DNA from: a virus
Reading direction: 5' to 3' (one strand)
IMG/VR virus record: IMGVR_UViG_3300049215_000835
Coordinates: 1-22,550 of that record
Length of the DNA stretch: 22,550 nt
In this document: positions 2,018 to 20,920 of the stretch, piece by piece
Numbering within the stretch: position 1 is the first letter of the stretch
How the letters are laid out: each line of letters begins with the position of its first letter
The notes under the pieces: model-generated
What the model saw: only the letters and a program-made list of their open reading frames with translations
Databases searched by the model: none
What the model was told of the DNA's origin: nothing
Position numbers and translations under genes: made by a program

Positions 2018-2347
2018 ATGAAAAATTTAATAGCGAAAGGAAAAGTAGTAACAGTCATTGCCGCCGCCGCTATACTCGCGGGCGACCTTGTAAAGATCGG
2101 CGGCGGCGGCCTGGTTGGTATAGCGGCCAGCAGCGCGGACATTGGCGAAGAAACGGAAGTATCGCTTACGGGTGTGTTTGCGGTCGCCAAAGCGGGAATA
2201 GCCATCAGCCAGGGCGACAAACTCTATGCGGATGCGGACGGCGAATTATCAAAAACGGCGGAGGGCAACACATTTGCCGGTTATGCGTATGAAGATGCCG
2301 CCGCCGGTGACGCAACCGTAAACCTGCTTTTGGCTAATGGCATTTGA
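2018..2347 (+). CDS. DUF2190-family capsid decoration protein
   Basis: This small protein (109 residues) is rich in Ala and Gly and resembles the DUF2190 family, whose members decorate or cement phage capsids and usually sit directly after the major capsid gene, as here. It starts with MKNLIAKGKVVTV and has a run of short beta-type segments with Gly-rich turns (GGGGLVG near 28-34, then SQGDKLYADADGEL), the usual DUF2190 pattern. The start at ATG 2018 is preceded by the A-rich leader ACAAACAGACAGG, which has only a weak Shine-Dalgarno. The last 11 nt overlap the next gene, which suggests translational coupling. The family call is from recognised sequence pattern; the decoration role is established for the family and inferred here. 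Confidence 0.75.
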   Translation: MKNLIAKGKVVTVIAAAAILAGDLVKIGGGGLVGIAASSADIGEETEVSLTGVFAVAKAGIAISQGDKLYADADGELSKTAEGNTFAGYAYEDAAAGDATVNLLLANGI

Positions 2348-2684
2348 TAACCTGTTCGACGGGCTGCAGGCGGCGACTTTTGACACGGTGACGGCGATTA
2401 TGGGGTATAGCGCCGTCTGGCAGCCTTCCGACGGGACACCTGCACAAACGGCAAGGGTACTATTCAAAAACCCCACAGAGCATCAAAAAATCGGCGATCA
2501 GGAGTACGACCCTTACCGATATACAATGGAGTACAAAATGGGCGTGTTCCCCGGCTTAAAACAAAGCGTGGACGCTAACCATACGGAGGAAGTAACCATA
2601 GGCGGAACCGGCTATTATGTGCGGCAGGTACACGCAAGGTTTGATGGTAAGACCATGACGGCAACGCTGGAATTAAAACAATAG
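2337..2684 (+). CDS. Putative head-tail joining protein
   Basis: The product is a 115-residue protein without signal peptide or membrane segment. It begins MAFDNLFDGLQAATFDTV and has mostly alternating beta-strand character in its second half (EVTIGGTGYYVRQVHARFDGKTM), as seen in small head-completion and head-tail connector proteins of the lambda FII or gp10-like type. It lies between the capsid decoration gene and the tail terminator, the usual place for a head closure protein. Its start overlaps the previous gene by 11 nt. The stop codon is part of a TAGGGTTTA motif that recurs behind several genes in this operon. The exact family is not certain; the role is drawn mainly from position and size. 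Confidence 0.6.
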   Translation: MAFDNLFDGLQAATFDTVTAIMGYSAVWQPSDGTPAQTARVLFKNPTEHQKIGDQEYDPYRYTMEYKMGVFPGLKQSVDANHTEEVTIGGTGYYVRQVHARFDGKTMTATLELKQ

Positions 2685-2706
2685 GGTTTATAGAGGATTA
2701 GAGGCA

Positions 2707-3183
2707 ATGGATTACGGGGCGCTGGAGATAGAGATAGCAAACAGGCTGCAACAGAAATTACAGGCACAGGGCTTTGATGCCATACCGCTGCCGGAAACGC
2801 AGGCGGAATATTCAAAACCCTTTACCAACGGGCGGGCAACGGTAGCGTTCACGAACGCCAAGCTGGACGACCCGCAAAGTACCGGCGAAATATCGCAATA
2901 CTTAGTCGTTACTTTTTCACTCAGCCTGCAATCGCGTTTCCTGCGCGGCGATAACGGCATACACCGTTTGTCGCAACTGGTCAAGCAATACCTGCTCGGC
3001 TTCCGCCCTACCGATTGCGACCGCCTGTATCATGTATCCCATGAGTTTGTCCGTTACGAGGACGGCGTGTGGGAGCATGTAATGGACTTTGAAGCAAAGA
3101 CCCTGTGGGTACAGGGCATTGACGATAACGACGACGAGGATTTACCGCTATTGAAGCGACTGGATTTTGAGGAAAAGGAATAG
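2707..3183 (+). CDS. Gp37-like tail terminator protein
   Basis: This acidic 158-residue protein resembles the Mu gp37 family. These proteins cap the tail tube and form the interface with the head-tail connector. The N-terminal helix (ALEIEIANRLQQKLQAQGFD, residues about 4-23) followed by a beta-rich core and a very acidic tail (DDNDDEDLP near 138-146) fits tail terminators, which commonly open with such a helix. The ATG at 2707 lies behind GAGGATTAGAGGC, a reasonable ribosome binding site. The neighbours agree with the call: a head-tail protein before it, then a DUF2635 protein and the sheath, which is the Mu order. The terminator role comes from family and context and was not shown by a diagnostic residue. 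Confidence 0.7.
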   Translation: MDYGALEIEIANRLQQKLQAQGFDAIPLPETQAEYSKPFTNGRATVAFTNAKLDDPQSTGEISQYLVVTFSLSLQSRFLRGDNGIHRLSQLVKQYLLGFRPTDCDRLYHVSHEFVRYEDGVWEHVMDFEAKTLWVQGIDDNDDEDLPLLKRLDFEEKE

Positions 3184-3190
3184 AGGGTTA

Positions 3191-3364
3191 ATGAAACAGT
3201 ACACATACACGGCAGCGACGCCCTGCCATTTTTCCATAGGAACAAAAGATTACTCCCTGCATCCCGGAGGCACTTACAGCCTCCCGGCGGATAACGGCTT
3301 CATTCAATCGCTGGCAGCGCAGGGGCTGCTTCAGCAAACCACAAACGACAAAACAGAGGAGTAA
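3191..3364 (+). CDS. DUF2635 (Mu gp38-like) small tail protein
   Basis: A 57-residue protein starts at ATG 3191, behind AGAGGG and just after the stop of the previous gene. An earlier in-frame start at 3167 would add eight residues that overlap the previous gene, and I consider it less likely. The sequence (HFSIGTKDYSLHPGGTYSLP, then a short helix) matches the short Mu gp38 / DUF2635 type, which is found between the tail terminator and the sheath in Mu-like phages. Its function is not established. The stop TAA overlaps the ATG of the sheath gene (TAATG), so the two are probably translationally coupled. The assignment depends on size, position and overall pattern. Confidence 0.6.
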   Translation: MKQYTYTAATPCHFSIGTKDYSLHPGGTYSLPADNGFIQSLAAQGLLQQTTNDKTEE

Positions 3365-4779
3365 TGGCTGCAAATTTTTTGCACGGTGTAGAGACAATAG
3401 AAATAGAGAGCGGCTCCCGGACGATACAGGTAGTAAAATCTGCGGTAATAGGTTTAATAGGCATTGCGCCAATGGGCGACACCAACACGCCGGTACTGGT
3501 GGGCAATGACCGCGACGCTGCGCAGTTCGGTAATAAGCTGCCGGGTTTTACCATACCGCAATCATTGGACGCAATCTTCAAACAGGGCGCGGGTACAGTG
3601 GTTGTGGTAAATATTTTTAACCCGGCGCTGCATACGGCGCAGGTAAACGACGAGGCACTGGTCGTTACCAACGGCAAGGCAAAATTATCCGCTGCGCCTA
3701 TTGGGAATGTTACCATAAACGACAGTAACGGCGATCCCATAACCTTTATAGCGGATACGGATTATACGCTGGACAGCTACGGCAATTTCATAGTAACATC
3801 TTCCGCCATTGCGGACGGTACGGCGCTGAAATTCACGTACAAGAAACTGGACGCTTCCGCTGTTACCGCGGCGGCGCTGATTGGTGAAGTAGACGCGCTT
3901 ACGGGTAACAGAACCGGCATGAAATGTTGGGACTTGACGTACAACCTGTACGGCTTCAAACCTAAAATACTGATTGCGCCGGGTTATTCCAGCCTGAACG
4001 CCGTATCAACGGAATTGATCAGTGTAGCCACCAAGCTAAGGGCGGTAAGCTATTTAGACGCGCCTTATGGTATTACGGTATCGCAGGCCATCAGCGGGCG
4101 CGGCGTTGCCGGTACGATCAATTTCAATACCAGCAGCAAACGCGCGGAGCTTTTGTACCCGCACCTGAAATGGTACGATGCGGCAACGGACAGTAATGCA
4201 GATTTCCCGTACAGCGCATTTAAAGCCGGGATACGGGCTGCGGTGGACAACAACGAGGGTTTTTGGGTGTCCGATTCCAACCACGAAATTTTAGGCATTG
4301 TAGGTACGGAGCGCAATATCTCCGCCGGTATCAGCGACGCGGACTCCGACGCTAACCTGCTGAATGAAAAAGGCATTACGACCATTTTTAACAGCTTCGG
4401 TTCCGGCATCCGCACCTGGGGAAACCGTAACGCCTCTTTCCCGACCAGTACCGCGCCGGACAATTTCGTTTGTGTCCGTCGTACCGCGGACATACTGCTG
4501 GAAAGCGTAGAGCAGGCAACGCTGCAATTCATAGATAAGCCGATCAATAACGCGCTGATAGATGCCATTAAAGAAAGCGTCAACAGCTTTATACGCACCC
4601 TGATCGGTCGCGGTGCATTGATAGACGGCAAATGCACCTTTGACCGTAGCAAAAACAGTAACGAGGAAATAGCCGCGGGACACCTCGTGTTCGACATATC
4701 CTTCATGGCTCCGCCCGCCGGTGAGCGCATCACTTTCAACAGCTTCATAGACATCAACCTGCTTAAAGCACTTAAATAA
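3364..4779 (+). CDS. Contractile tail sheath protein
   Basis: The 471-residue product is a phage tail sheath subunit of the Mu gpL / P2 FI type. This protein surrounds the tail tube and contracts to drive it through the host envelope. Visible support: the N-terminal region MAANFLHGVETIEIESGSR followed by VVKSAVIGLIGIAPMG, typical of sheath N-termini, and the C-terminal part (residues about 375-471) with RTADILLESVEQATLQF, a helix INNALIDAIKESVNSFIR, and a final beta strand hairpin ending in FNSFIDINLLKAL. Length is usual for the family. The start overlaps the previous stop (TAATG) and the stop overlaps the start of the tube gene in the same way, which fits balanced expression of sheath and tube. 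Confidence 0.93.
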   Translation: MAANFLHGVETIEIESGSRTIQVVKSAVIGLIGIAPMGDTNTPVLVGNDRDAAQFGNKLPGFTIPQSLDAIFKQGAGTVVVVNIFNPALHTAQVNDEALVVTNGKAKLSAAPIGNVTINDSNGDPITFIADTDYTLDSYGNFIVTSSAIADGTALKFTYKKLDASAVTAAALIGEVDALTGNRTGMKCWDLTYNLYGFKPKILIAPGYSSLNAVSTELISVATKLRAVSYLDAPYGITVSQAISGRGVAGTINFNTSSKRAELLYPHLKWYDAATDSNADFPYSAFKAGIRAAVDNNEGFWVSDSNHEILGIVGTERNISAGISDADSDANLLNEKGITTIFNSFGSGIRTWGNRNASFPTSTAPDNFVCVRRTADILLESVEQATLQFIDKPINNALIDAIKESVNSFIRTLIGRGALIDGKCTFDRSKNSNEEIAAGHLVFDISFMAPPAGERITFNSFIDINLLKALK

Positions 4780-5895: not shown

Positions 5896-7734
5896 GTGGA
5901 TAGGGAAACCAAGATAGCGGTCATACTTACGGCGTATGACCGCATGTCGTCTGTAATAAACAGGTCGGTCAACAGCGCGTCGGCAAAAATGAAGTCGCTG
6001 AAAAAGGTAAGCGAAGGGCTTAACAGTTTCGGCGATAAGGCACTAATCGGCGGCGGGCTGGCCACGGCGTATTTCGGTACGACGCTGGAAGCCGCGGAGG
6101 AAAACGAGGTGGCGGTAAACCGGCTGCGGCAGGTCTTTAAAAGTATGGGCGCTGCCAATGATCAGGCTGCGGCACAGGCGGAAGCCTACGCCGGTAAGCT
6201 GGAGTTTCAGATAGGCGTAGAGGACGAGGCAATTATGGCGGTGCAGGCAAAGATCGCCACCTTTAAATCCCTGAGCAGTGAAACCGGGCGTATGGCGGGC
6301 ATGTTTGACCGCGCGACAAAGGCTTCCTTTGATATGGCGGCGACCGGCTTCGGCGAAGCAGACCAGAACGCGGTGCAATTGGGTAAGGCATTGGAAGACC
6401 CGATAAAAGGCATTAGCGCCCTGCGCCGTTCCGGTATCACCTTTACCGAATCGGAAAAGGCAAAGATTAAAGCCCTTACCGAAAGCGGGAAAAAGCTGAA
6501 GGCGCAGGAAATGATTATGAAAGCCGTGGAAAAGCAGGTCGGCGGCGTTGCGGAAAAGACGGTAACGAGTACGCGCATGGCTAAGGTAGCGTGGAGCGAG
6601 GTAACGGAGAATATCGGTAAAATCCTGATGCCTACCGTTGCGCAATTAGGTAACAAATTCGTTAATGATGTTGTGCCGAAAGTCCAGGCATTTATCGAGA
6701 AGCACCCGCAGCTGATTAAATACGCCGCCGCAGCCAGCGTTGGTTTACTGGCATTGGGCGGCGCGGCTAAAATATTAGCCTTCGGCATCAACGGCGTTAT
6801 TTCCATTGTCAACGGGGCAAGCACGGCAATAAAATTCATGGGTAATACCTTTTCCTTTGTCGGCAAACTTTTTGCCACAAACCCGGTATTGCTCATTATT
6901 GCGGCAGTCGCTGTTGCTGCGCTGTTGATATACAAGTATTGGGATCAGATAAAGGCGTTCTTTACCCGGCTATGGGATAGCGTGACGGCAGCATTTGCCA
7001 AAGCGTGGGAATGGATAAAGCGCATGTTCCTGAACTACACACCGCAGGGACTTGTTATAAAGCATTGGGATAAGATACGCGCGTGGTTCAGCAATCTATG
7101 GGACAAGGTAAAAGCCATTTTCCGGGTAACATGGGAAGCTATTAAAACGCTGTTCCTGAATTATACACCGCAGGGTTTGATCATTAAACATTGGGATAAG
7201 ATTGTGGCGTGGTTCGGTGAATTATGGAACCGGGTAAAGAGTATTTTTACGGGCTTCGTGTCCTGGTTGTTCGGACTTGGTAATACCTTCCTGAATGCCG
7301 GTAAAAATATTGTTGACAGTATATGGAAGGGCATAAAAAGCGTGGCGCACAAACCTATTGAAGCCATTAAAGGCATGGTCAGCAAGATACGTGATTACCT
7401 GCCCTTCTCACCGGCTAAGACCGGCGCATTAAAAGATATTCACCGTATCAAATTGGTGGAGACCATTGCGCAGAATATCAAAGCTACGCCGCTCCTACAG
7501 GCAATCAGTAATGTTGCCGATCAGGTGTTCCATTTCAAAGGACAGCAATTTATGCCCGCACCCGTGATGGCGGGTAATAACGGCGGCACGGTTACAATAC
7601 ACTTTGCGCCGGTTATACAGTTAAGCGGCAGCGCCACACCAAAGGACGCAAATATGCTGACCTCTGAAATGCGCAGGCAGTTTGATAAAATGATGAAAGA
7701 TTATGAAGCGCGAATGAGGCGAGTCCGGTTTTAA
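5896..7734 (+). CDS. Tape measure protein
   Basis: The 612-residue product sets tail length and passes into the host at injection. It starts at GTG 5896 behind AGGAGG (5882-5887), the clearest ribosome binding site of the region. Residues 1-260 are mostly helical (MDRETKIAVILTAYDRMSSV, then charged coiled-coil-like stretches), followed by two hydrophobic segments (about 274-305 and 329-346). Three copies of a Trp-rich repeat with a 42-residue period occupy about 347-460, and the ending contains the motif YLPFSPAKTGAL (501-512), typical of tape measure C-termini. It is short for the family; with the usual 1.5 A per residue the tail would be about 90 nm long. The next + strand tail gene is 1.9 kb away because of the inserted antisense gene. 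Confidence 0.92.
   Translation: MDRETKIAVILTAYDRMSSVINRSVNSASAKMKSLKKVSEGLNSFGDKALIGGGLATAYFGTTLEAAEENEVAVNRLRQVFKSMGAANDQAAAQAEAYAGKLEFQIGVEDEAIMAVQAKIATFKSLSSETGRMAGMFDRATKASFDMAATGFGEADQNAVQLGKALEDPIKGISALRRSGITFTESEKAKIKALTESGKKLKAQEMIMKAVEKQVGGVAEKTVTSTRMAKVAWSEVTENIGKILMPTVAQLGNKFVNDVVPKVQAFIEKHPQLIKYAAAASVGLLALGGAAKILAFGINGVISIVNGASTAIKFMGNTFSFVGKLFATNPVLLIIAAVAVAALLIYKYWDQIKAFFTRLWDSVTAAFAKAWEWIKRMFLNYTPQGLVIKHWDKIRAWFSNLWDKVKAIFRVTWEAIKTLFLNYTPQGLIIKHWDKIVAWFGELWNRVKSIFTGFVSWLFGLGNTFLNAGKNIVDSIWKGIKSVAHKPIEAIKGMVSKIRDYLPFSPAKTGALKDIHRIKLVETIAQNIKATPLLQAISNVADQVFHFKGQQFMPAPVMAGNNGGTVTIHFAPVIQLSGSATPKDANMLTSEMRRQFDKMMKDYEARMRRVRF
6934..7275 (+). repeat. Tape measure 126-bp tandem repeat (about 2.7 copies)
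   Basis: Inside the tape measure gene a 42-codon unit recurs at 6934, 7060 and 7186. Each copy begins with a YWDQI or HWDKI motif followed by an AFF/AWF ... LW pattern. The first two copies end in the identical FLNYTPQGL, and the third degenerates after SIF. The copies differ at many silent positions, so the duplication is not recent. Confidence 0.8.
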
Positions 7735-7744
7735 TGACACAACT

Positions 7745-9484
7745 TTACGCCGTAACGGTGTTAGCATGTTGAGCCGCTTCCGCATTATGACCAACAACGT
7801 ATTGATCAACTTTATTTAGTATCAGCCGCGCTCTTTCAGTAATAAAATCTTCAAACTTATCTTCCGTCCAAAGGGTTTCATTTGCTGGTATTAAGTGCCT
7901 CATCGTAAATGCTTTTTTATCGGGCAGACTATCTATCCATTGTTTGAACGGTTTAGCATTCTTTTCACCACGGTTCGTACCATAATCCAACAATTGAAAA
8001 TTCTTTATACTGTTGATTTTACCCCAATCATATCCTAAGCCCTCCAGAATAGACTTCGGCATTATATGGTCAATATCCTGAGCCCTAATTGTTTGCTTCC
8101 TATCGTAGATGAGATAATACAAAAATTGACTATCCAAAGCGTCTAAATTTGAAGTGTCAAAGCTCTCCGTAAATATTACTCCGTGGTCATAATAAACATC
8201 AAATAACTCAGTTACCGGGAAATCGGTGTTCTTATAATTTACGATGACTTCAAGTATTTTTCTTATTCCGGTTTTGTAAGGTATCCAGCCCGCGCCTTTG
8301 CTTTTAAATACGCCGTTTAACAGAGAATAATAAACCCACTTTTTTATTTTAATAAATTCTGGATTGTTAGCATCGTGATTGTCAAAGAAAGCCTCTATTT
8401 GCTGATTTGAAATATTCTTATGGAAGATATGGTATGCAATAAAAAACAGTGGGATAAAAGAGCGGTTACCGTCCTTATAGTAAAACTGTAAATCGGAGTA
8501 AATCAAAAATTTCTTTAAGCCTGTTAAAACGCTTTTTATACGTTCGGATTGATCAATAGCAAATTGAGCGTCGGCTGCGCCTATGTCTGTCATTTCTTTT
8601 TTATGATTATCCTGAAGCAAGAAAATCAGCTTAATTAAATTATCCTGAGTAAGTCCAATATCACTATACTCAACTAATGTTTCCTCTAAAAAGCCCTCCA
8701 TTTGCCATTCAAATCCTTTTAAAATAGACGCTACTAAGTCAAAAGGCGATAGCTTTGTTCCGCCATCATTTAAACGTCTAAATAACTCAACAATTCTTTG
8801 CCGGTTCTGAGTTTCATTAAACGTTTTATCAATGGCAACCTCCGAAATGCCTAAACTTTTACCGCCAATAACATTTCGATAAAAGGCAGCAACATTTTCT
8901 AAAATGTGGTCTTTTTCATTATCGTCAGTTATGCTATCAGAAGCAATAATGCTCTTTGCCGTAGTCTTATCATTATTGGTTAGCTTAAGGCTTTTGAAAA
9001 GCTCGGTTAAAGGATACCATTTATACTCTTTGATCGTTTTGTTAGTATCATCTTTTGCGAACTTCGGCAATTTTTTATAGTCGCCTTCAAACTTAAACTC
9101 AAATTCAGCATTGTAATTGCTGAATAGGTCGAAGTACAATATTTTTCCATTGATTGTTCCGGACAAGCCAATGTAAAATGATTGCAGGCGCTGCTGCCCA
9201 TCAATTACAAAACTTTGACTTTGCTCTATCCGGGCTACTTCTAAAGAATTTATAGGCTCGCCGTCTTTTGTAAATGGCCGGAAGGAAAAAAGCGGCTTGC
9301 TGTTTTTTTCTTCTTTTATCACCATAATACCTCCAAAAGAATCTCCTTTTAGCAGCGTATCAAAAAGTAACTCCATTTTATCTTCATCCCATACAAGACG
9401 CCTCTGAATAACAGGCAGAACAAATTTCTTGTCGTCTATATCTGATATAATATCTCCAATACGATATGCCTCCCAATTTGCCAT
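7745..9484 (-). CDS. DUF262/DUF1524 nuclease (GmrSD-like)
   Basis: The 579-residue protein combines a DUF262 domain with a DUF1524 HNH-type domain, as in GmrSD type IV restriction enzymes that use NTP hydrolysis to cut modified DNA. DUF262 landmarks are LPVIQRRLVWD (23-33), the signature VIDGQQRL (93-100), and RRLNDGGTKLSPFDL (236-250). The DUF1524 part has the IDHIMPKS motif (His473), NFQLLD (495-500) and an Asn at 504 or 509, a complete-looking beta-beta-alpha metal site. It is the only minus-strand gene in the window, visibly AT-richer than its neighbours, and interrupts a tail operon that normally runs from tape measure straight to gpU. I infer an acquired defence or exclusion gene. The target is unknown. 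The convergent end lies 10 nt from the tape measure stop. Confidence 0.9.
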   Translation of the reverse strand: MANWEAYRIGDIISDIDDKKFVLPVIQRRLVWDEDKMELLFDTLLKGDSFGGIMVIKEEKNSKPLFSFRPFTKDGEPINSLEVARIEQSQSFVIDGQQRLQSFYIGLSGTINGKILYFDLFSNYNAEFEFKFEGDYKKLPKFAKDDTNKTIKEYKWYPLTELFKSLKLTNNDKTTAKSIIASDSITDDNEKDHILENVAAFYRNVIGGKSLGISEVAIDKTFNETQNRQRIVELFRRLNDGGTKLSPFDLVASILKGFEWQMEGFLEETLVEYSDIGLTQDNLIKLIFLLQDNHKKEMTDIGAADAQFAIDQSERIKSVLTGLKKFLIYSDLQFYYKDGNRSFIPLFFIAYHIFHKNISNQQIEAFFDNHDANNPEFIKIKKWVYYSLLNGVFKSKGAGWIPYKTGIRKILEVIVNYKNTDFPVTELFDVYYDHGVIFTESFDTSNLDALDSQFLYYLIYDRKQTIRAQDIDHIMPKSILEGLGYDWGKINSIKNFQLLDYGTNRGEKNAKPFKQWIDSLPDKKAFTMRHLIPANETLWTEDKFEDFITERARLILNKVDQYVVGHNAEAAQHANTVTA

Positions 9485-9519
9485 ATAAATATTATAAGTT
9501 GTTAGATTAAAAAAATGCT

Positions 9520-9527
9520 GAAATATA
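9520..9527 (-). promoter_or_regulatory. Candidate -7 element of the DUF262 gene
   Basis: On the minus strand TATATTTC matches the Bacteroidota -7 consensus TAnnTTTG at five of six fixed positions and lies 36 nt upstream of the start codon. A -33 TTTG box at ideal spacing is not obvious (TTTTA about 23 nt upstream is the nearest). The 112-bp gap around it is AT-rich, unlike the rest of the window, so an own promoter for the cargo gene is plausible but unproven. Confidence 0.4.
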
Positions 9528-9596
9528 GCAAACTTTTGCTCTATCTGTATAAAACTGGTCTAAATCTTTTTCCGACTATTCTCCAACTTAGCAACC

Positions 9597-10454
9597 ATGT
9601 ATTGCCAGTTGGGGGATATTCTTTTTGAGGGGCTGAAAGGCATTGAAGCGTGGAGCGTGGACGGTAACGAGGCATCCTACGGCGAACATGCGTTGATTGA
9701 CGGCAAGCCGCGTTTGCAAAAGACCGGCGACACCTTGCAGGAACTTACGCTTACGTTCCACCTTCATGCCAAATTCTGCAACCCTGCGCAGGAACTTTCC
9801 AAACTGGATAAATCAAAAACGGACGGCGAGATACTACCGCTGCTCATGGGCGACGGTACTTACGTTTCGGATTACGTGATTATCTCCGCGCCTTATACGG
9901 TAGATCATGCCCTTGCCGACGGTACAATCGTGCAGGCAACCGTTACGCTTTCCCTGAAAGAATTTGTACCCTATTCCAAAGACGAGCAGCAACAGCAGGC
10001 GGCGCGTAAAAATTCGTTTGCTACCGGGGATAAAAAGCCGGTCATTACCAAACCGCCGCAAGCGCCCACGGCAGCGGCAGCCGCGGCAAAGAACGTCACC
10101 GAAACCGCGCAGCAGGCAAACGAGGTGGACGGGCTGGTGGGCGATTATGAAAACAACGTGTCCGCCCGGCATTCCATAGAGCAGGCAATCAAAAACGCCT
10201 GCGATAAAGGCAACGACGCAATAGATGCTCTGGACGACAAACTGGATAATATCGAGGAACTGCAAGGCGTATATACCGCGTTGCAAGCCGCGGCAGTAGT
10301 GGTATCCGGCAGGTTCGGTTCTATAAAGGCATTGTTTCCTATTACGGATATTTCGGACTTGCAGGACGCTAATACCTACCTGCAAGCCGCCATGCGCAGT
10401 ATGAACCGCGCGTCCATTCCTTTACTTAATAATGTGATAACGCGCCGCGGATAG
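9597..10454 (+). CDS. P2 gpU-like tail protein
   Basis: The first 125 residues match the P2 gpU family of small tail-completion proteins: the opening MYCQLGDILFEGLKGIEAW, then ALIDGKPRLQKTGDTLQEL and KEFVPYSK. P2 gpU is about 160 residues, so this 285-residue protein carries a long C-terminal extension with a low-complexity linker (PPQAPTAAAAAAK) and a helical part (SARHSIEQAIKNACDKG, DALDDKLDNIEELQGVYTAL). gpU-type proteins act at tail completion. The order gpU-gpX-gpD is that of P2. The start ATG lacks a Shine-Dalgarno, and the transcript reaching it must run through 1.8 kb antisense to the DUF262 gene unless a promoter lies in 9485-9596. Confidence 0.82.
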   Translation: MYCQLGDILFEGLKGIEAWSVDGNEASYGEHALIDGKPRLQKTGDTLQELTLTFHLHAKFCNPAQELSKLDKSKTDGEILPLLMGDGTYVSDYVIISAPYTVDHALADGTIVQATVTLSLKEFVPYSKDEQQQQAARKNSFATGDKKPVITKPPQAPTAAAAAAKNVTETAQQANEVDGLVGDYENNVSARHSIEQAIKNACDKGNDAIDALDDKLDNIEELQGVYTALQAAAVVVSGRFGSIKALFPITDISDLQDANTYLQAAMRSMNRASIPLLNNVITRRG

Positions 10455-18954: not shown

Positions 18955-19039
18955 TACAAAACATGGACTATTACGCTCCGTGGGTAATGACCATCTTTGT
19001 TTCACATTCGGGAAGTGAAGCAGGAAAAGTGAAGTAAGG

Positions 19040-19119: not shown

Positions 19120-19602
19120 ATGAGAGCATTTTTGATGAAGACGATTGCAGGAAAAATTATAGCGCATACCAGCCCCACGTTATTAGTTGCCAGCGGCATC
19201 GGGGCATTAATCCAAAAATATATTTTCAGCGACACCGAGTATTTGACCTGGCTCTTGATTGCCGTCATGCTCGACCTGATTACCGGCATTACAAAAGTGT
19301 GGGTCAACCGTGGTTTAAGCCATGTTACCAGCCGGGGGCTACGCATGACCGTAATAAAATTTATCCAGTACGGAGCCTTTCTCATCATTACGCACACGCT
19401 CGCAAATTTTACGGTGAACGGCCAGCACGTTTCACCACTTGCCTTTATAGAAAATTGGGCATACTCGCTATTAATACTCATCGAGGCAAAGAGCGTGTAT
19501 GAAAACATTGTCGCTATTAATCCTAAGCTGGACTTTATAAAGCCGCTTATCGACAAAATCAGTAAAACAATAAAAGACCCGGAAAATGAAGAAGAGCATT
19601 AG
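19120..19602 (+). CDS. Phage holin (family 4-like)
   Basis: The 160-residue protein has hydrophobic segments typical of the phage_holin_4/toxin-secretion holin family: about 21-35 (LLVASGIGALIQKYIF), 43-58 (YLTWLLIAVMLDLITG), 80-98 and 112-125. The motif AVMLDLITGITKVWVNRGL is common to this family. Holins open the inner membrane at the programmed time. The next gene, a spanin, overlaps by 17 nt. The start ATG 19120 is not preceded by a good Shine-Dalgarno; ATG 19135 (MKTIAGKI) is a plausible alternative and would not change the topology. Confidence 0.85.
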   Translation: MRAFLMKTIAGKIIAHTSPTLLVASGIGALIQKYIFSDTEYLTWLLIAVMLDLITGITKVWVNRGLSHVTSRGLRMTVIKFIQYGAFLIITHTLANFTVNGQHVSPLAFIENWAYSLLILIEAKSVYENIVAINPKLDFIKPLIDKISKTIKDPENEEEH

Positions 19603-20075: not shown

Positions 20076-20234
20076 ATGGAAAATGAAAAAGAAAAGAAGG
20101 ACAATCCGAAAGGGTTTAATTACCGGGAGCAACATGCGGTCATTGTCCGGGTAGCAACGGAACAGGAGCAGAAAGAAGTATTTGAAAAACTAAGGGAATT
20201 AGGATTTACGGATTTAAAGGTCGTATCGGTATGA
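20076..20234 (+). CDS. Small 52-residue protein of the ATPase cassette
   Basis: A 52-residue open frame starts at ATG 20076, five bases after the spanin stop (TAG 20069-20071), and its TGA stop overlaps the next ATG (ATGA). The product is highly charged at the start (MENEKEKKDNPKGFNYR) and then predicted beta-alpha-beta (AVIVRVATEQEQKEVFEKLR, GFTDLKVVSV). The rigid overlap with the ATPase gene argues for a coupled real gene. I do not recognise its family. A regulatory or subunit role for the ATPase-acyltransferase is possible. Confidence 0.65.
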   Translation: MENEKEKKDNPKGFNYREQHAVIVRVATEQEQKEVFEKLRELGFTDLKVVSV

Positions 20235-20920
20235 GGATAGAGGTAAACCATAGTTGCGAAAACTACAAATCATTCAGGGCGGAAAAAGTAAAGTCCCTGT
20301 TCAACCCGGAAAGCGGGCATACGTGGAGCCATATTGCCGATATACCCGTCGAAGGGAACGGCTGGCAGATAGGATTGATCGTCGGTGCTTCCGGTAGCGG
20401 TAAATCCAGCCTCGGCAAACAGGTATGGGGCGCTGACCGCGTACATGACCTGTACAGCGGTTGGGATAACGATAAACCTATTGTCGACTGCATTGCACCG
20501 GAAGGAGATTTTAAAGCCGTTACGGGTGCGCTGGCATCGGTCGGCCTCGGCGATGTTCCGGCGTGGCTGCGTCCTTTTAAAGTTTTGTCCAACGGGGAGC
20601 AATTCCGCGCGGGGCTGGCAAGGCTTACCATTGACGCGCCGGACAAAGTAGTGGTGGACGAGTTCACCTCCGTTATTGACCGGCAGATTGCGCAGGTCGG
20701 CGCTTCCGCCTTTGCAAAGGCATGGCGCAGGAATACGGGTAAGCAGATCATTCTGCTATCCTGCCATTATGATATTATTGATTGGCTGCAGCCGGATTGG
20801 GTCTATGATACCCGGACGGCGGAAGTAAAAAAAAACTCCAGCCAAGGCCTCCTGTTTCCCTTGACGTATGGAAGGTCAACGGAAGTTACTGGAAGTTTTT
20901 TAAAGCGCATTATTATTTAG
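20231..20920 (+). CDS. ABC-type ATPase, zero-frame part of ATPase-GNAT
   Basis: The zero frame encodes 229 residues, but the authentic ABC domain ends near residue 202; the last 27 residues are a short out-of-frame tail. Walker A is VGASGSGKSS (51-60), the signature LSNGEQ (119-124), Walker B VVDEFTSVID (141-150) with Asp143/Glu144, and the H-loop His179 (SCHYDIIDW). The combination resembles the ABC ATPase of COG2401-type proteins, in which an ATPase is joined to an acetyltransferase domain. It has no membrane partner, so it should act as a soluble ATPase, not as a transporter. The overlap ATGA couples it to the 52-residue protein. Codons 201-202 and the base before form a slip site that would connect it to the GNAT frame. 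Confidence 0.82.
   Translation: MRIEVNHSCENYKSFRAEKVKSLFNPESGHTWSHIADIPVEGNGWQIGLIVGASGSGKSSLGKQVWGADRVHDLYSGWDNDKPIVDCIAPEGDFKAVTGALASVGLGDVPAWLRPFKVLSNGEQFRAGLARLTIDAPDKVVVDEFTSVIDRQIAQVGASAFAKAWRRNTGKQIILLSCHYDIIDWLQPDWVYDTRTAEVKKNSSQGLLFPLTYGRSTEVTGSFLKRIII
20830..20836 (+). promoter_or_regulatory. Candidate -1 frameshift heptamer A_AAA_AAC
   Basis: In the nine-A run 20827-20835 followed by C, the zero-frame codons AAA AAC with the preceding A form A_AAA_AAC, a canonical -1 slippery heptamer. A shift there makes the open GNAT frame continuous with the ATPase (374 residues in total). A possible stem (20854-20865 with 20875-20886, one C-C mismatch) lies about 18 nt downstream, which is further than usual. 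A sequencing or replication indel in the A-run is the alternative. Confidence 0.6.

Follow-up and report, generated by a model that had tools for sequence, protein, structure and literature searches.

Our analysis identifies the junction between the tape measure and gpU tail genes as a true cargo hot spot, which belongs to a group of Chitinophagaceae phages and in the DNA studied here carries a gene for a GmrSD-family nuclease resembling BrxU. We propose that this nuclease is a lysogenic-conversion ('moron') defence cargo, a type IV restriction enzyme housed in a slot between late transcription units, and we consider this reading probable. The window, an IMG/VR virus record of 22,550 bases, covers a late region with a capsid/protease fusion, sheath, tube, tape measure, gpU, LysM-type hub, gpD and holin; no integration genes were recognised within it, and it represents a phage fragment. 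It is a single metagenomic contig, for which a chimera is conceivable; its architecture is common to independent contigs.

A BrxU-like nuclease gene between two tail genes

The first-pass annotation had described an AT-rich DUF262/DUF1524 gene with intact DGQQR and HNH motifs in the interval 7735-9596, separated by 10 nt from the tape measure stop and by 112 nt from gpU. This interval is exactly that between the two tail genes, the gap coordinates agree, and the gene has a GC content of 36.1% against 51.5% in the rest of the window (Table 1).

Table 1. Coordinates of the nuclease locus, the 17-nt elements and the cargo of related phages.
Feature	Locus	Position	Strand or orientation	Remarks
Tape measure gene, left anchor	Window	5896-7734	+	612 aa; PHROG 28/58, E 2e-37/8e-36
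Gap left of cargo	Window	7735-7744		10 nt; left boundary
Cargo nuclease gene	Window	7745-9484	-	ATG start, 579 aa, single gene; GmrSD family, BrxU/HEC-05-like, predicted modification-dependent
DHIMP motif	Window	8057-8071	-	Residues 472-476; DUF1524 HNH/His-Me finger; invariant in alignment
DGQQR motif	Window	9188-9202	-	Residues 95-99; DUF262 nucleotide hydrolysis site; invariant in alignment
Gap right of cargo	Window	9485-9596		112 nt; between divergent nuclease and gpU starts
17-nt element TAAAACTGGTCTAAATC	Window	9550-9566	+	31-47 nt before gpU ATG; right cargo boundary; candidate late promoter/activator site
gpU tail gene, right anchor	Window	9597-10454	+	Phage_P2_GpU, E 4e-22
Second element copy AAAACATGGACTATTAC	Window	18958-18974	+	Ahead of holin gene 19120-19602
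Further element copy	L030	3296		
Further element copy	L080	8861		
Tape measure-gpU junction	L002			Empty, 50 nt
Tape measure-gpU junction	L003			Sequence at contig end
Tape measure-gpU cargo	L004		Antisense (RHH-like)	67-aa RHH-like gene and XRE gene running off contig
Tape measure-gpU cargo	L005	5567-5896	Antisense	109-aa membrane-type protein; left gap 14 nt
Tape measure-gpU junction	L006			Empty, 76 nt
Tape measure-gpU cargo	L007	4423-6903	Sense	826 aa; HSDR_N-like domain and KAP/AAA NTPase
Tape measure-gpU cargo	L034	6617-7758	Divergent pair	Antisense HxlR regulator and sense DsbA-like lipoprotein; left gap 151 nt
Portal-capsid cargo	L080	5782-8680	Antisense	DUF4297 and HerA; 34% GC
Portal-capsid cargo, prophage G002	L074	2194-9907		Split type IIG-like RM and PDC-M19A/B pair
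Portal-capsid cargo, prophage G001	L072 to L030	L072 11404 to L030 3045		RND metal-efflux cassette

The N-terminal GmrSD_N profile (PF03235, DUF262) matches above its cut-off (E 3.6e-27). The GmrSD_C (DUF1524) match is weak (19.1 bits, E 0.0012) and falls short of the curated cut-off of 23, although the DHIMP motif of the nuclease aligns to the DHIYP motif of BrxU. The PADLOC profile for HEC-05, which has been equated with BrxU and described as acting alone (PMC11411939), covers residues 1-563 (E 5.3e-49). The crystal chain of BrxU (PDB 7P9K) was matched with an E-value of 7e-15 from the protein alone and of 3.1e-22 with the family profile, and it was the sole significant solved relative in the PDB search with that profile; the SspE chain gave no match in this search even at E 10. 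No ssp genes were recognised among the window proteins searched, a result for the window only. The nuclease motifs read LLFDT, DGQQR and DHIMP, and their BrxU counterparts are RLFDS, DGQQR and DHIYP (PMC8565348); in an alignment of eight bacterial homologues, which are 60-66% identical to the window nuclease, the DGQQR and DHIMP motifs are kept throughout. A single-sequence structure prediction of the nuclease had a pLDDT of 35 and was not usable for a fold search.

Judged by its sequence, the window nuclease is a full-length member of the GmrSD family, closest to BrxU and with its motifs intact, and it is predicted by homology to cleave DNA with modified cytosines; BrxU itself cuts DNA bearing various cytosine modifications (PMC10952713; PMC12409352). 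The two proteins share a single-chain form, a similar length, the order of DUF262 then DUF1524, the DGQQR and DHI(Y/M)P motifs and a full-length match, and BrxU works as a single gene, as the window nuclease is likewise a single gene. They are nevertheless distant in sequence, the likeness being found by profile (E 3e-22), and their settings differ: BrxU was described from a BREX or Hma cluster, which is a matter of context and not a trait of the protein, whereas the window nuclease lies among late phage genes and has nothing but tail genes on either side.

Homologues of the nuclease with at least 89% coverage and 60-67% identity are present in nine of 394 genomes from the family of the nearest host, and three further genomes of this set have split or partial homologues. 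Comparison with homologues gave a pS of about 0.8, which is saturated, and a pN of about 0.25, indicating that the lineage of the gene is under purifying selection. The neighbours at the 10 homologue loci read were genes for SSB, DUF932 and a 142-aa protein, metal-resistance-like genes, a DNA methylase or a tyrosine recombinase (the last at one locus), and tail genes adjoined the homologue at none of the 10. The homologues thus lie on chromosomal islands away from tail genes, and the phage holds a gene otherwise sited on islands. Other viral contigs yielded no nuclease relative by pattern search, with either the single protein or the family profile, and the relatives in annotated phages are only about 23-25% identical. 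Within the reading of the gene as cargo, which we favour as a whole, horizontal acquisition is likewise probable.

Among the chromosomal homologues, loci L057-L063 have as common neighbours SSB, a DUF932 protein and the 142-aa gene, which shows faint restriction-fold similarity. Their neighbourhoods also contain di-haem/metal genes, which likewise occur as cargo in prophage G001. This suggests that the homologue islands and the phage cargo draw on a common mobile gene pool.

The tape measure-gpU junction in related phages

Eight loci were compared at this junction, the window and seven relatives. Six relatives have a gpU at least 83% (83-95%) identical to that of the window, four of them viral contigs (L002-L005) and two (L006 and L007) from Flavipsychrobacter MAGs of the Chitinophagaceae; the seventh, L034, was added through a search with the tape-measure C-terminus (80% identical). 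Two of the eight junctions are empty, and at least five different cargos occur among the rest. An insertion hot spot with neat boundaries had been proposed from the window alone, and the junctions of the relatives bear this out: they are empty or filled with unrelated cargo, so that the site is variable and the nuclease is not an ordinary resident of it. The two tail genes are also mostly adjacent elsewhere, as had been supposed. Of eight distant prophages, whose gpU is 30-40% identical, seven have them side by side or almost so (from an overlap to 56 nt), and the same holds for Pseudomonas phage Komp_PAO1_1; the exception, L024, has 498 nt with an 82-aa ORF between them. Two other distant tape-measure matches (L035 and L036) came from unrelated phages or elements and were set aside, and a genus-level search brought to light neither more gpU copies nor any relative of the L007 cargo.

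All scored cargos have a GC content of 33-39% in phages of 47-51%. No direct or inverted repeats of 7-8 nt or more were found at the cargo boundaries, so nothing there points to transposition or to insertion at a specific site. The 826-aa nuclease-NTPase of L007, for which there was no PADLOC system match except a weak one to mad8, is likely a candidate for an unrecognised defence gene. The 109-aa cargo of L005, in which two stretches appear hydrophobic and which matched no family, is a candidate exclusion or defence protein. The HxlR and DsbA-like pair of L034 indicates that the tail site takes more than defence genes; L034 and L003 come from one metagenome and may be halves of a single phage. 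The tape measure is 96-97% identical in L002 and L005. Across the group it occurs in two forms, of 612 aa (window) and 658 aa (L006, 4948-6924), which are about 45% identical overall and share a C-terminus (about 80%), pointing to a module swap inside the gene.

A probable late-control element and a second cargo site

When the loci are aligned from the gpU start, mean identity is 0.87 in gpU and 0.29, the chance level, upstream of position -48. Just inside this limit lies a 17-nt element of the type AAAAC-N5-CTAATA, at a fixed distance from gpU in all seven sequences, which the first-pass annotation had missed, as it had the second cargo site. A strict consensus string missed most element sites and a matrix was used instead, built from the gpU sites alone with the capsid and holin sites held out. 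In five relatives the sequence TAAAACTCGGCTATTAC precedes the capsid gene, and where its distance to the annotated start was measured it is 42-60 nt. In three cases AAAAC(A/T)TGGACTA(A/T)TAC stands before the holin gene. These held-out sites have P values up to 0.001 each, and the matrix scores 16-19 at the sites against at most 6.2 in other gaps of the window; a match in L077, an unrelated large phage, was rejected as due to chance. Its recurrence before the capsid and holin genes makes the element a probable late promoter or activator site. Phage Mu offers a parallel in its several separate late promoters, lys, I, P and mom, which are activated by C (PMC4461284); the putative promoters here would stand before the lysis, head and tail/baseplate units.

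These observations suggest a model for the slot. One late transcription unit would end at the tape measure and the next would start at the element just before gpU; DNA inserted upstream of the element would leave both late units intact, and we propose that the slot exists for this reason. The link between slot and element would provide a simple rule for where a phage genome can take up cargo and keep its late operons undamaged.

The portal-capsid junction is a second cargo site in the same phage group and is likewise upstream of the element. The recognised defence genes among the cargo are HEC-05 in the window and HerA-DUF4297, the IIG-like RM and PDC-M19 at the second site; cargo other than defence is represented by HxlR and DsbA at the tail site and by RND efflux at portal-capsid. 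The tail site is covered by six viral contigs, counting the window, and each of them has an end at or close to either the capsid start or the tape measure-gpU junction; this would be expected if variable sites cause assemblies to break. The two anchor-gene pairs can now serve to look for new systems in short contigs from metagenomes. A broader reading would make both junctions cargo docks, each directly upstream of the 17-nt late-control element, which swap defence and fitness cassettes and where neighbouring late transcription silences the antisense ones lytically; in this full form we think it rather unlikely.

P2-like phages and P4 satellites have defence hot spots of 1-5 kb, in which genes for nucleases, ATPases and RM systems abound (Rousset et al., 2022, PMC9122126). 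The site described here resembles them as a small, high-turnover locus between two conserved phage genes. The P2 and P4 hot spots adjoin cos and those of Vibrio phages lie between cI and the integrase (PMC9122126), whereas in the present Chitinophagaceae phages they lie at tape measure-gpU and portal-capsid, in both cases with a late-promoter-like element immediately downstream. The cargo site appears to be of a kind already known, a prophage defence hot spot with a BrxU-type nuclease, but its position and its host group appear new; no report of a hot spot at tape measure-gpU in this host group was found in the literature searched. A phage group of Bacteroidota joins the known prophage defence hot spots.

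Proposed role of the nuclease and alternative readings

We propose that the DUF262 NTPase/sensor domain licenses the DUF1524 HNH nuclease, which would then attack invading phages whose DNA has modified cytosines, and that cleavage of the invader's DNA would protect the lysogen and the resident prophage. The suggestion of a lysogenic anti-phage cargo, made in the first-pass annotation, gains support from the BrxU/HEC-05 grouping of the nuclease and from its temperate relatives; its expression in the lysogen and its anti-phage phenotype are what we infer. Two of the relatives, L006 and L007, sit in bacterial contigs of 92 and 435 kb, where the phage region is bordered on one side by a large serine recombinase; this indicates that the phage group is temperate. 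Morons such as that of DLP4 (PMC6469090) are similarly horizontally acquired and compositionally odd, and are thought to be independently transcribed; the present case differs in having one fixed slot, where cargos of many unrelated kinds are found and may face either way.

A promoter of its own in the 112-bp gap had been suggested for the nuclease gene, and this found no support: the best Bacteroidota-type -7 match at the nuclease start has five of six positions and is at chance level (P 0.49 against shuffles), so the gene could be silent in the lysogen. Complete TAnnTTTG (Bacteroidota -7) boxes precede five other cargo genes, with a shuffle P below 0.05 in four. In generic sigma-70 and terminator scans the matches exceed shuffles across the AT-rich gene, and none explains the gene ends.

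The antisense placement of the nuclease might be purposeful, with late transcription of the tail operon silencing the gene lytically, as the first-pass annotation had suggested, and so preventing self-damage. The antisense orientation recurs in L005 and L004, and in L080 at the second site, and antisense coupling is proven for Tha/Ith of S. aureus phage 80alpha, where a prophage defence gene likewise faces an opposite transcript (PMC11087260). In that system, however, there is a dedicated inhibitor and the coupling was tested, whereas here orientation varies among relatives: the sense cargo of L007 and the divergent pair of L034 make antisense shut-off a possibility and not a conserved design. 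Furthermore, transcription from the tape measure may stop short of the nuclease gene, given that gpU and what follows have an element to themselves; and a modification-dependent nuclease should spare its own unmodified phage DNA, so that shut-off would not be needed. We therefore regard a purposeful antisense arrangement as improbable.

The AT-rich composition of the gene and its chance-level promoter match would also suit a degenerate or functionless passenger, caught through illegitimate recombination. Its 579 intact codons, the retention of all catalytic residues and the strong purifying signal in its lineage speak against decay, and we rejected this reading as very improbable. Least credible, and also rejected, is a selfish gene akin to a homing endonuclease, whose HNH nuclease would cut empty tape measure-gpU sites and so spread itself: the gene does lie exactly between two conserved genes and empty alleles exist, but non-nuclease genes fill the same site in relatives, family relatives occupy unrelated chromosomal sites, the protein falls by its family match with NTP-dependent restriction enzymes and not with homing HNH proteins, and no boundary repeats were found.

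Elsewhere in these phages, an ABC-type ATPase-like protein of 229 aa is encoded near the lysis end of the window (20231-20920), and L073 encodes at 2134-3933 an ATPase-like protein followed by a formyltransferase-domain protein, which is unusual for a phage.
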